From Campylobacteraceae bacterium (GTDB lineage Bacteria; Campylobacterota; Campylobacteria; Campylobacterales; Sulfurovaceae): a stretch of 52,405 nucleotides of DNA. The translations under genes were made by a program, and so were the position numbers. The notes under the pieces were generated by a model that saw only the letters and a program-made list of their open reading frames with translations, made no database searches and was not told the origin of the DNA. Where the stretch lies: contig JALVXD010000082.1 in assembly GCA_027038295.1 (NCBI GenBank), positions 1-52,405 of the forward strand. The letters are read 5' to 3'. The first letter of the stretch is position 1, and every line of letters begins with the position of its first letter. Of the stretch, positions 1,153-29,706 are shown piece by piece.

Positions 1153-1219
1153 GTGGGGGATTAAACAGCTTTAAAGAATAAAACTTAAAATATTGTATTT
1201 ATACCATTTTCCATAACAC

Positions 1220-1244
1220 GGTGTAGTCGGGGACTACACCCTAC
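1220..1244 (-). repeat. REP-like hairpin with GTAG foot (copy 1)
   Basis: Stem GGTGTAGTC (1220-1228), loop GGG (1229-1231) and stem GACTACACC (1232-1240) form a perfect 9-bp hairpin. It is followed by CTAC (1241-1244), so on the minus strand the element reads GTAG then hairpin. The same element recurs at 27298-27322 with an identical stem and at 27370-27394 with a changed but still fully paired stem. A GTAG tetranucleotide at the foot of an imperfect or perfect palindrome is the known signature of REP elements tied to Y1 (RAYT) transposases. It lies where the -35 of the next gene would be. Confidence 0.75.
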
Positions 1245-24670: not shown

Positions 24671-27301
24671 ATGAGCGAAACCAAAAAAAACGTATACAAC
24701 CCAAAAGAGATAGAAGAGAGCTACTATAAACTTTGGGAAGAGAGAAACTACTTTGAGATAGAGGGTAATAAGTCTATCCAACAACCTGATAAGCACTTTA
24801 CTATTATGATGCCACCACCAAACGTAACGGGTCGGCTTCATATTGGTCATGCTTTGACCTTTACACTTCAAGATATTATTGTTCGTTATAAAAGAATGGA
24901 TGGGTACAAAACCCTTTGGCAACCAGGGGTTGACCATGCTGGGATAGCAACTCAAAATGTGGTTGAAAAACAGCTTTTAGCAGAGGGTACTACCAAAGAG
25001 GCAATAGGGCGTGAAGCCTTTTTGGAACGTGCTTGGATGCAAAAAGAGAACTCACAAGATGCCATTACTTCTCAGCTTAGAAAGCTGGGTGTATCTCCTG
25101 CGTGGAGTCGTGAGCGTTTTACCATGGATGAAGGTCTTGGAAATGCAGTAAAAAAATCATTTAAACAGATGTACGACAACGGTTTCATTGTTCGTGACAA
25201 CTACATGATTAACTGGTGTACTCATGATGGTGCGTTGAGTGACATCGAAGTAGAACATGAAGACCACATGGGTAAAATGTACCACATTAACTACCCATTG
25301 GCTGATGGTTCAGGAAACATTACCGTAGCAACCACACGTCCAGAGACCTACTTTGGAGATACTGCCGTGATGATTCACCCTGATGATATGCGTCATAACC
25401 ACTTGATAGGTAAAAAAATTAAACTGCCTTTAATTGAGCGTGAAGTAGAGATTATTGCTGATAGTCATGTAGATATGGAGTTTGGAACAGGGTTTGTAAA
25501 AGTTACTCCTGCTCATGATACAAACGATTATGAAGTTGGAAAAAGACATGATTTAGAGTTTATTACTATCTTTGATGAGAAGGGAATTTTAAATGAGTAT
25601 TGTGGAGAGTTCCAAGGCTTAGAGCGTTTAGAAGCTAGAGATGTAATTGTTCAAAAACTAGACAATGCAGGGTTTATGGTTAAAATAGAAGACCACCCTC
25701 ACCAAGTGGGTCACTGTTACCGATGTAAAAACATTGTAGAGCCGTACATCTCTAAACAGTGGTTTGTTAAAAAAGAGTTTGCAGCTTCGTCTATTGAAAA
25801 AGTAAACAATGGAGAAGCAGAGTTTTTCCCAAGCCATTGGATTAACTCTTACAACGCGTGGATGGGTGAACTACGCGACTGGTGTATCTCTCGTCAGCTT
25901 TGGTGGGGACATCAGATTCCTGTCTTTTACTGTAACGACTGTGACCATGAGTGGGCTGTAGAGGGTGAGAACCCAACGTGTTGTGAAAAGTGTAACTCTG
26001 AAAACATTCACCAAGACCCTGATGTTCTTGATACTTGGTTCTCTTCTGGTTTATGGCCGTTCTCTACTCTTGGTTGGGGAAATGGTGAGTTTGGAAAAGA
26101 TGCTTTATGGAATGAAGAGGACATGAAGAACTTCTACCCAAATAATTTGCTTATTACTGGGTTTGATATTCTTTTCTTTTGGGTAGCTAGAATGCTTATG
26201 ATGGGTGAAAATATTACAGGTGAGTTGCCATTTAAAGACATCTATCTACACGCACTTGTAAAAGATGAAAAGGGTGAGAAGATGAGTAAATCTAAAGGGA
26301 ATGTTATTGACCCTTTAGAGACCATTGACAAGTACTCAACCGATGCACTTCGATTTACTTTGGCTGTTCTTGCTGTGCAAGGGCGTGATATTAAACTAAG
26401 CGAAGACAAACTAGAGCAGAGCCGTAACTTTACCAACAAACTGTTCAATGCGACAAACTTCTTGCAGTTAAATCAAGAGCATTTTGATGACCTAGACCCT
26501 GCAAACATTAAAACCCCTCTTGGGCGTTATATGTTGGCACGATTTAACGTGGCTGTTAAAGAGACACGTGAGTTTATGGACGTTTATCGTTTTAATGATG
26601 GGGCAACGGTTCTTTATCGTTTCTTATGGGGAGAGTTCTGTGACTGGGGAATTGAGCTAAGTAAAGCAGACAAAGCCTCTGTAGCAGAGCTTGGAAGCAT
26701 CTTTAAAGAGTCTATGAAGTTGCTTCATCCGTTTATGCCGTTTATTACTGAGAACCTCTATATGCGATTGAGTGAAGAGAGCTTAGAAGAGGGTGAATCT
26801 ATCATGGTTAAGGCTTATCCTACTGTAAGTGAAGCAGATGATGAGGTAATCAAACAGTTTGACCTTATTATGGAAGCGATTGTTTCTGTACGTCGTTGTA
26901 AAACGCTTATTGACAAGGGAAACCAAAAAATAGAAAAAGCCTCTGTTAAACTTCCTGCTGGTTCAGACTTAGAGATGATGAAACCGTTCATAGAGAAGCT
27001 TGGAAAGGTAGAAGAGCTTACTTTTGTAGATGAGAAAATAGCTAATTGTGTAACCGATGTTTCTGATAATTTAGAGACATTTATCTCTACTGATGATGTG
27101 GATATGTCGGCAATTATTGGAAAGCTTACTAAGCAAAAAGAGAAGCTTGAAAAAGAGATAGCTAAACTCAATGGAATGCTGAATAATGAACGATTTGTGG
27201 CTAATGCACCAGAGCAGGTTATTGCAGAAAATAGACAGGCTTTGGATGATGCTTCTGAGAAGATGGCTAAGGTTGAGGGGGAACTTAAAGGATTTGAGTA
27301 G
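24671..27301 (+). CDS. valS: Valyl-tRNA synthetase
   Basis: ValS charges tRNA-Val. The 876-residue class I synthetase has the HIGH motif at 57-60 (RLHIGHALT), a CP1 editing domain (VATTRPETYFGDTAV, VKVTPAHDTNDYEVGKRH) and zinc-binding CNDC...CCEKC residues in the insert. KMSKSKGN follows at 537-544, then the anticodon-binding helical domain and a C-terminal coiled-coil arm (KLTKQKEKLEKEIAKLNGML). The length is normal. Its final codon and stop are GAG TAG, and the TAG belongs to the GTAG foot of a REP-like hairpin that starts at once. Confidence 0.97.
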   Translation: MSETKKNVYNPKEIEESYYKLWEERNYFEIEGNKSIQQPDKHFTIMMPPPNVTGRLHIGHALTFTLQDIIVRYKRMDGYKTLWQPGVDHAGIATQNVVEKQLLAEGTTKEAIGREAFLERAWMQKENSQDAITSQLRKLGVSPAWSRERFTMDEGLGNAVKKSFKQMYDNGFIVRDNYMINWCTHDGALSDIEVEHEDHMGKMYHINYPLADGSGNITVATTRPETYFGDTAVMIHPDDMRHNHLIGKKIKLPLIEREVEIIADSHVDMEFGTGFVKVTPAHDTNDYEVGKRHDLEFITIFDEKGILNEYCGEFQGLERLEARDVIVQKLDNAGFMVKIEDHPHQVGHCYRCKNIVEPYISKQWFVKKEFAASSIEKVNNGEAEFFPSHWINSYNAWMGELRDWCISRQLWWGHQIPVFYCNDCDHEWAVEGENPTCCEKCNSENIHQDPDVLDTWFSSGLWPFSTLGWGNGEFGKDALWNEEDMKNFYPNNLLITGFDILFFWVARMLMMGENITGELPFKDIYLHALVKDEKGEKMSKSKGNVIDPLETIDKYSTDALRFTLAVLAVQGRDIKLSEDKLEQSRNFTNKLFNATNFLQLNQEHFDDLDPANIKTPLGRYMLARFNVAVKETREFMDVYRFNDGATVLYRFLWGEFCDWGIELSKADKASVAELGSIFKESMKLLHPFMPFITENLYMRLSEESLEEGESIMVKAYPTVSEADDEVIKQFDLIMEAIVSVRRCKTLIDKGNQKIEKASVKLPAGSDLEMMKPFIEKLGKVEELTFVDEKIANCVTDVSDNLETFISTDDVDMSAIIGKLTKQKEKLEKEIAKLNGMLNNERFVANAPEQVIAENRQALDDASEKMAKVEGELKGFE

Positions 27302-27322
27302 GGTGTAGTCCCCGACTACACC
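27298..27322 (+). repeat. REP-like hairpin with GTAG foot (copy 2), supplies valS stop codon
   Basis: GTAG (27298-27301) is followed by stem GGTGTAGTC (27302-27310), loop CCC and stem GACTACACC (27314-27322). The 25 bases are identical to copy 1 at 1220-1244 read on the other strand. The TAG at 27299-27301 is the stop codon of valS. With the opposed copy at 27370-27394 it forms a head-to-tail palindrome pair like a BIME. Confidence 0.78.
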
Positions 27323-27369
27323 GTCAAAATAAAGCCATGAGTTATTAAAATATTTAAATATATTAACAC

Positions 27370-27394
27370 GGTGTTTTCGGGGAAAACACCCTAC
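27370..27394 (-). repeat. REP-like hairpin with GTAG foot (copy 3), supplies GGDEF-EAL stop codon
   Basis: On the minus strand GTAG (27394-27391) is followed by stem GGTGTTTTC, loop CCC and stem GAAAACACC, ending at 27370. Relative to copies 1 and 2 the stem has two changed positions, each matched by its partner, so the 9-bp pairing is kept. The TAG at 27393-27391 is the stop codon of the minus-strand GGDEF-EAL gene. About 47 AT-rich bases lie between copies 2 and 3. Confidence 0.78.
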
Positions 27395-29706
27395 AAGAAT
27401 CTCTCTTCAAACTCTTTAGCAGGAATGGCTCTACTACATAAAAAACCTTGGTAGTAGACATCTTTATCTATACACATTAGTTTCTCTTTTTGTTCTTCTG
27501 TTTCGACACCTTCAACAATTATTTTATAACTAAACTGCTTCCCAATAGCTACAATACTCTTTACAAGTTCATAACTATCTTCATTGGTTTCAATATCTGT
27601 AACAAAAGTCTTGTCAATCTTTAGTACCTTAAATGCAAATTTTTTCAAATAAGATAGTGAAGAGTAACCTGTACCAAAGTCATCAATACTACACTCAATA
27701 CCTATTGTTTTTAATTTCTGAATAATGGTTTGTGTATTTGAAAAATTATCTAAAAGTGTGGTTTCTGTTAATTCTAATTTGAGTAGAGAAGGAGCTATTC
27801 CTCCTTTTGTGATGCAGGTATTTAGTTGTTCTACAAAGTTAACTTCATTTAATTGTCTAGCATTAATATTGATAGATATGTATTCAAAATTGATGAGTTT
27901 ATTTGTTTTCCAAATATAGAGTTGCCTACAAACTTCTTTAGCTACCCACCAACCTATTTTTGTAATCAGCCCTGATTCCGTAGCCATAGGTAAGAAGCTG
28001 TCTGGCATGATAAGACCTCGGGTAGGATGGTTCCATCTAATTAATGCCTCTATGGCATTAAGTTTGTTGTTATGCATGGAGACAATGGGTTGATAGTATA
28101 GCTCTAGTTCACTCTTCTCAAGAGCAGATTTTAGGTCATGTTGTAAAGAGGTAAGTTCACGCTGTTTTATATCAAGAGAATGGTCATAGAAACGAATGTT
28201 ATTTAAACCTTCTCTTTTAGTTTGATACATTGCCATATCGGCTTGTCTTATAATGTGTTCGGTGTTGTTGCTTAGAGGTTCTATCATAACAATACCAATA
28301 CTTGTAGTCATAAAAAGATCCAGTCCTTCTATTTCAAATGCTGGAGTAAATATCTCTTTCATCTCTTTAGCTAACTCTTGTGCCTGTTTTTTTGTTTCAG
28401 TTCTATCTATAGAATGAAAAGGAATAATCATAATGAACTCATCTCCTCCTATACGAGAAAGATACTTATTGGGAACTTTAACTGTTTGGAGTCGTTTAGC
28501 AACTTCTAACAGTAGTTTATCACCCACAACATGACCAAAAGTATCATTAATTTGCTTGAAGTGATTTAAATCCATATAAAATAGTATAGAGTAGTAGATT
28601 TTATGTTGCTCTTTTTTTATAAGGTCAAGCATATACTCTTGGTAGCTTCGTCTATTTGGCAAACTTGTCAATGCATCATGAAGGGATATGTAGTTGATTT
28701 TTTCATAGGCTTCATGTTCCATGGTTTTATCCTCTACTGTTCCTATTCCACCAATAATATTGTTGTCTTCATCAAGCAATGCTGAGCAGGTCAATTCAAC
28801 CCATATTTTCTCCTCTTGAAAGGAAAAATTATAGGAACCTATAAGTTCATGTGACTCTTTATCTTCAAGAACACTTTTCATGAGTTTTATAGCATATTTG
28901 TCCTTTAAATTATTGAGGTCAAACCCATTTAAATTACCTCCTAAAGCAAATATTTCATCAAATAAGGCATTGTAACTCAGTATTTTCAACTCTTTATCAT
29001 AGTAAAAGATACCAATAGGTGCTTGATTAAGCAATGAACTTAACTTTTTTTCTTTTAGGCTTAACATATCTTTTGCCCAGTGATATTTCTCTTGATTTGT
29101 ATAGGTTTGATGAAAGAGTTGGTTTAAATGTTTATTTGATATTAAAAGTAAAATGTAAAAAATAAATATTAAAAATTGTGTAATATGTGCATACTCCATA
29201 GTTGAGAATGAGACCATAAATAGAAGAGGAAGAATGAGTATACTTATAAATAATGACGAGATTCTAAAGTCAAATAATAAACCTGTCATTGCCCCTGCAA
29301 AACCACTAATGAAAAATATCATAATTAATTGATAGTTATGATTTAAATCATTAAAAAATAGAAGGGGTGTAATACCCCATAAGATTGCATGAAATATAGA
29401 TTTATATTTAAAAATTTCATACCAATTTAAACTGTTTTTTGTAGTTTTAGATTGAATTCCAAATTTTACAGTATATTGGGTATAGTTATAGAACCAACTC
29501 ATATTTAATAGTAAAAGTAGTACGTACCAAATTATCAATAGAATAGTATTTGTTACTTGATTATAAAAGAGATAAAGAAATATAGATGCTAAAATAAAAG
29601 TAGCTATAATAATTTTGGGTAATATTTTATATAATTCTTCAGTTACTCTACTTTTAACATTAGGAAAATGTATTTTTTCAGAGATATAGTATATAAGACT
29701 TTTCAT
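27391..29706 (-). CDS. Membrane-anchored PAS-GGDEF-EAL cyclic-di-GMP enzyme
   Basis: This 771-residue protein has about six membrane helices in its first 195 residues, a PAS domain (about 215-330: IGIFYYDKELKILSYNALF), a GGDEF domain and an EAL domain. The synthase site GGDEF is at 420-424 and intact. The usual RxxD inhibitory site before it reads VPNK, so product inhibition is probably lost. The phosphodiesterase domain has EAL at 553-555, INARQL, ELTETTLLDN, DDFGTGYSS, KIDKTF, EGVETEEQ and YYQGFLCSRA, all the usual metal and catalytic residues. It could therefore make or break c-di-GMP. Its signal is unknown. The gene is convergent with valS. Confidence 0.93.
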   Translation of the reverse strand: MKSLIYYISEKIHFPNVKSRVTEELYKILPKIIIATFILASIFLYLFYNQVTNTILLIIWYVLLLLLNMSWFYNYTQYTVKFGIQSKTTKNSLNWYEIFKYKSIFHAILWGITPLLFFNDLNHNYQLIMIFFISGFAGAMTGLLFDFRISSLFISILILPLLFMVSFSTMEYAHITQFLIFIFYILLLISNKHLNQLFHQTYTNQEKYHWAKDMLSLKEKKLSSLLNQAPIGIFYYDKELKILSYNALFDEIFALGGNLNGFDLNNLKDKYAIKLMKSVLEDKESHELIGSYNFSFQEEKIWVELTCSALLDEDNNIIGGIGTVEDKTMEHEAYEKINYISLHDALTSLPNRRSYQEYMLDLIKKEQHKIYYSILFYMDLNHFKQINDTFGHVVGDKLLLEVAKRLQTVKVPNKYLSRIGGDEFIMIIPFHSIDRTETKKQAQELAKEMKEIFTPAFEIEGLDLFMTTSIGIVMIEPLSNNTEHIIRQADMAMYQTKREGLNNIRFYDHSLDIKQRELTSLQHDLKSALEKSELELYYQPIVSMHNNKLNAIEALIRWNHPTRGLIMPDSFLPMATESGLITKIGWWVAKEVCRQLYIWKTNKLINFEYISININARQLNEVNFVEQLNTCITKGGIAPSLLKLELTETTLLDNFSNTQTIIQKLKTIGIECSIDDFGTGYSSLSYLKKFAFKVLKIDKTFVTDIETNEDSYELVKSIVAIGKQFSYKIIVEGVETEEQKEKLMCIDKDVYYQGFLCSRAIPAKEFEERFL

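Follow-up and report, generated by a model that had tools for sequence, protein, structure and literature searches.

Repetitive extragenic palindromes (REPs) of the GTAG superfamily combine a GTAG tag with a perfect short stem and a short loop, occur as head-to-head dimers, and are placed just after genes, including between convergent genes (Di Nocera et al. 2013, PMC3733652; this and the other publications are cited from excerpts). The same study reported that these termini "often provide" flanking open reading frames (ORFs) with their TAG stop, REPs between convergent genes were mostly ≤20 bp from both 3' ends, and a Sulfurovum strain was found to carry GTAG REPs. In Pseudomonas fluorescens SBW25, REP doublets forming hairpins (REPINs) fold into one long hairpin and are associated with REP-associated tyrosine transposases (RAYTs) (PMC3116915). 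CT is the known cleavage dinucleotide of TnpA-REP, the Escherichia coli representative (PMC8266576), and ribosome stalling is reported for E. coli REPs that lie ≤15 nt from a stop (PMC12306157). The window analyzed here, a stretch of 52,405 nt, belongs to a 2.8-Mb draft genome (293 contigs) of a vent-dwelling Sulfurovum relative and contains a 97-bp element between valS and a convergent gene for a PAS-GGDEF-EAL protein. This element has the tag, stem, loop, dimeric arrangement, and gene-end position of the GTAG REP superfamily, a likeness by described features rather than by the 24 family consensi in PMC3733652. With the SBW25 REPINs it shares the single long hairpin (about 71 bp between hairpin starts here) and the RAYT association, while differing in sequence and phylum. 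The supply of TAG stops by GTAG REPs has been known since 2013 (PMC3733652). Added here are protein ends that are mostly conserved, some truncations, and unrelated REP families at the same stop across species; counts and stop comparisons in relatives of this kind were not found in the excerpts of PMC3733652, and conserved ends, truncations, and recurrent docking were not found in excerpts of related literature located by search terms only.

The element between valS and the GGDEF-EAL gene

The 97 bases were laid out as GTAG, hairpin, 47 bases, hairpin, CTAC, and the TAG of each outer GTAG was the in-frame stop of the gene running into it, as the initial annotation had stated. The features at this locus were as follows.

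27298..27394, no strand: REPIN (GTAG-REP doublet with the GTAG tags outermost), 97 bp, filling the entire valS/GGDEF-EAL intergenic gap
27298..27322, plus strand: REP 1, GTAG tag and hairpin GGTGTAGTC-CCC-GACTACACC; full sequence GTAGGGTGTAGTCCCCGACTACACC
27323..27369, no strand: AT-rich spacer of 47 bases with family-conserved ends, GTCAAAA... and ...TTAACAC
27370..27394, minus strand: REP 2, GTAG tag and hairpin GGTGTTTTC-CCC-GAAAACACC; full sequence GTAGGGTGTTTTCCCCGAAAACACC
27299..27301, plus strand: TAG stop of valS, within the REP 1 tag; position also found in element-free relatives
27391..27393, minus strand: TAG stop of the GGDEF-EAL gene, within the REP 2 tag; relatives without any REP at this end continue TYIYHI, then TAA
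24671..27301, plus strand: valS, valyl-tRNA synthetase, 876 aa, ending GAG TAG
27391..29706, minus strand: PAS-GGDEF-EAL protein gene, 771 aa, ending TTG TAG, convergent with valS

The initial annotation had described two facing elements 47 bases apart. The hairpins and their spacing were as given, but they are the ends of a single repeated 97-bp REPIN and not two elements, because head-to-head pairs were common among the family copies of this genome and 22 of the 26 distinct doublets measured were 94 to 99 bp long. Each half is a short palindrome, one end of which carries GTAG as an unpaired tag, and the inverted pair, at its constant spacing, folded into a single long imperfect hairpin (z = -8.36 as RNA and -6.40 as DNA). 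The inner ends of doublets were also conserved within the family, GTCAAAACCAAA and TATAACAC being examples.

Genome-wide counts were derived from pattern searches and about 50 loci. The pattern GTAGGGTGN{3,14}CACC matched 3 times in the window (0.01 expected), and GTAGGGTGN{3,20}CACCG matched 68 times in the whole genome and 0 times as a reversed control, which bore out the description of the hairpins as REP-like; some of the 68 matches represented a second stem type, GGTGCG. Copies were numerous, dispersed, and mostly extragenic. A looser pattern was matched in 31 of the 34 genomes of the genus, with stems that varied between species (GGTGTAGTC, GGTGCGATTGC, GGTGCAATTTATTGC, and others) and a constant GTAG tag. 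Exact matches to the 25-mer were found in Campylobacteraceae, Sulfurovum, and Epsilonproteobacteria metagenome genomes.

A profile search identified five Y1_Tnp matches in the genome: one ordinary IS200/IS605 TnpA adjoining TnpB, one interrupted by a stop, and three proteins that exceeded the curated cutoff of NCBIfam NF047646, the REP-associated tyrosine transposase. RAYT-type Y1 transposases of the kind invoked in the initial annotation are therefore present. The protein encoded on contig C285 matched the TnpA-REP chain of PDB 4er8 at 2e-20. Two of the three RAYT genes adjoined a REP of the family (L and C numbers are locus and contig codes).

L117 (C285), 1057-1713: RAYT gene with a family REP within about 200 bp
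L110 (C231), 789-1560: RAYT gene with a family REP within about 200 bp

These two genes and their REPs are candidate REPtrons in a Campylobacterota genome; the proteins resemble TnpA-REP (PMC8266576), and the pairing of RAYT with REP is putative here. Near-identical flanks upstream of the REP (AAGTGAAA.AC. before GTAG) were observed at L113 (C273), L115 (C277), and L117 (C285), suggesting a duplicated segment that includes the REP. Longer, composite doublets were found at L105 (2544-2680, 136 bp) and L118 (1495-1632, 138 bp), and the spacer of the former held a further inverted repeat, AACGAAGCTACAGCTTGGGAACG, a mosaic of repeat families. One other copy was observed in the window.

1219..1244, minus strand: lone REP (half-REPIN) of this family, between two genes and off stop codons

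This copy retained a REPIN-like inner end (ATAACAC) and lacked a partner; it is probably a decayed half-REPIN.

Gene ends at GTAG feet and in relatives

The overlap of GTAG feet with stop codons was far above chance. Among 77 distinct feet examined, 41 had a same-strand ORF of ≥100 codons (ORFs were taken by openness, without a gene finder) that ended at the foot or ≤80 nt before it. The TAG of the foot was the exact gene end in 22 of the 41, about half of the flanking genes; the others ended 5 to 58 nt upstream, and 35 of the 41 ended within 15 nt of the foot. ORFs (≥100 codons) that were open up to the foot entered it in the TAG phase in 22 of 26 cases (phases 22:2:2; binomial P = 1e-7 against 1/3). 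Of 32 genes that had a REP ≤90 bp away, 15 ended in a GTAG stop, compared with 6 of 59 others (P = 1.5e-4). The bias to stop codons, whose absence among genome-wide copies would have spoken against the initial annotation, was thus present. Its argument that the shared mode of ending of both genes speaks against chance adds no evidence, because about half of the flanking genes end on a foot, and at such frequencies roughly one convergent pair with both ends on feet is to be expected.

The bases before the tag also differed between classes of feet, with CC or CT preceding 25 of 55 non-stop feet (background, 9%) versus 2 of 22 stop codon feet (P = 0.003). The enrichment resembles the CT cleavage rule of TnpA-REP (PMC8266576), unlike the stop codon copies, which lack the CT/CC context. 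Insertion in two contexts, of which one is a preexisting GTA(G), would fit this contrast.

C termini were compared in 21 genes (valS, the GGDEF-EAL gene, and 19 more; the set with offset zero was picked in a single genome), using 3' ends from up to 12 relatives represented by draft assemblies, one per species (G000 denotes the genome under study and other G numbers those of other species). The protein ended at the same codon as at least one element-free ortholog in 15 of the 21 genes, including valS, and 2 more differed by one residue. The remaining 4 ended elsewhere (GGDEF-EAL, L104, L112, and L124), with truncations of six residues in the GGDEF-EAL protein and three to five in the L112 response regulator. 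Orthologs of the L124 gene in G022, G023, and G027 seemed element free by the filter but carried a REP in another phase and were not counted as empty.

In the REP-free relatives G021, G025, G017, and G001, the valS product ended in KGF(E/A) or a near variant at the same codon, followed by TAG or TAA; the valS end is therefore older than the REPIN. The GGDEF-EAL protein ended in FLTYIYHI or FLTYVYHI in G013, G015, G031, and G032 and in FLTFIYHI in G014, and FL was followed by TAG in G000, G023, and G024. The frame ran into the REP in G027 (FLCRV), and in G009, FLL was followed by the TAG of a REP from another family. In a tree of gene 3' ends (15 genomes retained), G009 was apart from the clade of G000, G023, G024, and G027; the simplest account is therefore two losses of the tail, both accompanied by a REP. 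Arrival of the REPIN probably set the C terminus of the GGDEF-EAL protein, which is six residues longer in relatives without a REP there. The initial annotation had proposed that arrival defined both C termini and that relatives with the same stops but no hairpins would speak against this; the proposal holds for the GGDEF-EAL protein and fails for valS.

Stop codons changed more readily than proteins. The closest sisters often had TAA where G000 had TAG and a REP (uvrB, a DEAD-box gene, and an MlaE-like gene), and in G027 the MlaE-like gene had TAA at that codon with the downstream flank resuming directly. With the ends mostly kept, it follows that the element often alters the stop codon and rarely the protein. 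In fabG, ATG TAG was present without a REP in four relatives; that is, GTAG was already there. Two simple rules were ruled out. The element does not always determine where the protein ends, as valS and 14 other genes show, and a target GTAG does not always preexist, as shown by L119, uvrB, and the DEAD-box gene, the stops of which are TAA in sister species.

Clearly different REP stems followed the same stop directly across species in about 10 of the 21 genes, for example, GGTGTT, GGTGCA, and GGTGCG at the L123 gene and GGTGTA, GGTGCG, and GGTGCA at valS. In G029 and G031 (L232, L233, L040, L202, and L262), several stops were followed by short GTAG-stem-CTAC palindromes, such as GTAGGGGTAAACCCTAC and GTAGATTTGAGAATTTCAAATCTAC, which may be other GTAG families or collapsed REPINs.

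Explanations for the stop codon overlap

The element is very probably a REPIN, a nonautonomous miniature transposon that consists of two GTAG-tagged REPs in inverted orientation and that a RAYT (an HUH/Y1 transposase) spreads. The RAYT would move it as single-stranded DNA. A copy that lands in the TAG phase on an existing stop, or one codon away from it, would leave the protein unchanged and would survive for that reason. The target may already have contained GTA or GTAG in some genes, with the insertion following it; in others, the element would have contributed its own TAG in place of a TAA or TGA no more than one or two codons away. At valS, the end would have been kept, and at the GGDEF-EAL gene, a dispensable six-residue tail would have been removed. 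Any effect on expression would most likely come from the strong hairpin right after the stop, through protection of the mRNA 3' end and/or slowed termination rather than through an intrinsic terminator. By analogy, a hairpin directly after a stop can have either effect: most genes here end as close to the hairpin as those with stalling REPs in E. coli (PMC12306157), from which the 22 exact cases differ in having zero spacing and the stop inside the element.

Several points weigh against the transposon explanation or limit it. Mobilization of the REPIN was not observed. Clean empty sites numbered only one or two in close relatives, because most sites are occupied in sister species, and when five relatives were searched for joined flanks at 15 further REPIN loci, essentially a single clean site emerged. 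At L001/L002, the comparison with G027 revealed an empty site with flanks about 97% identical, and no direct movement was seen. The empty site at L119, a phosphoribosyltransferase locus, had no GTA, and the element therefore supplied its own tag there. Selection after random insertion could account for part of the phase bias, and the CC/CT difference could partly reflect constraint on the codon of the last residue.

Taken further, the first of these last two points gives the alternative that REPINs insert anywhere, without targeting, and that the excess at TAG-phase stops reflects survival of protein-sparing copies. This has an appreciable chance of being correct, clearly below even: REPs are known mainly from positions just downstream of genes (PMC3733652), and phase 1 insertions that add two or three residues (RV or CRV) exist in G022, G023, and G027. 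However, the phases were 22:2:2 although phase 1 costs only about three residues, unrelated REP families occupied the same stop in different species, and CC or CT was scarce before stop codon feet. A tentative extension of the REPIN explanation, to which we give slightly less than an even chance, is that G-preceded stops are recurrent docking sites: in different species, several unrelated REP families would insert at the GTA(G) stop of a given gene or displace each other there. Such docking, possibly by different RAYTs, would be a mode unlike the usual CT-flanked insertion and would yield a TAG end without protein loss, an elaboration to be held just as tentatively.

An explanation in which the stop is usually a product of the insertion, which thereby gives the flanking proteins new C termini, is unlikely. 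The altered ends of the GGDEF-EAL, L112, L104, and L124 products are in its favor, as are the TAG bases that seem to be element derived where sisters have TAA, but element-free orthologs with the same or nearly the same last codon in most of the 21 genes largely refute it as a general rule, and it can still hold for individual genes, among them the GGDEF-EAL gene. A host-selected, shared bidirectional intrinsic terminator, a role also suggested in the initial annotation, is very unlikely, given that both strands form stable hairpins between convergent genes but the T-tract that should follow a GC hairpin on each strand was absent after either hairpin on either strand, a terminator search found 0 terminator-like sites, and a multicopy mobile family that turns over does not require such a function.

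The in vivo insertion rules of RAYTs are poorly known, and the bias to stop codons, together with the repeated presence of unrelated REP families at one stop, suggests a RAYT target rule. The relatives show how little it can cost when the tag of a mobile hairpin is also part of a stop: the stop codon may turn into TAG with the protein unaltered, and tail loss is confined to some genes.
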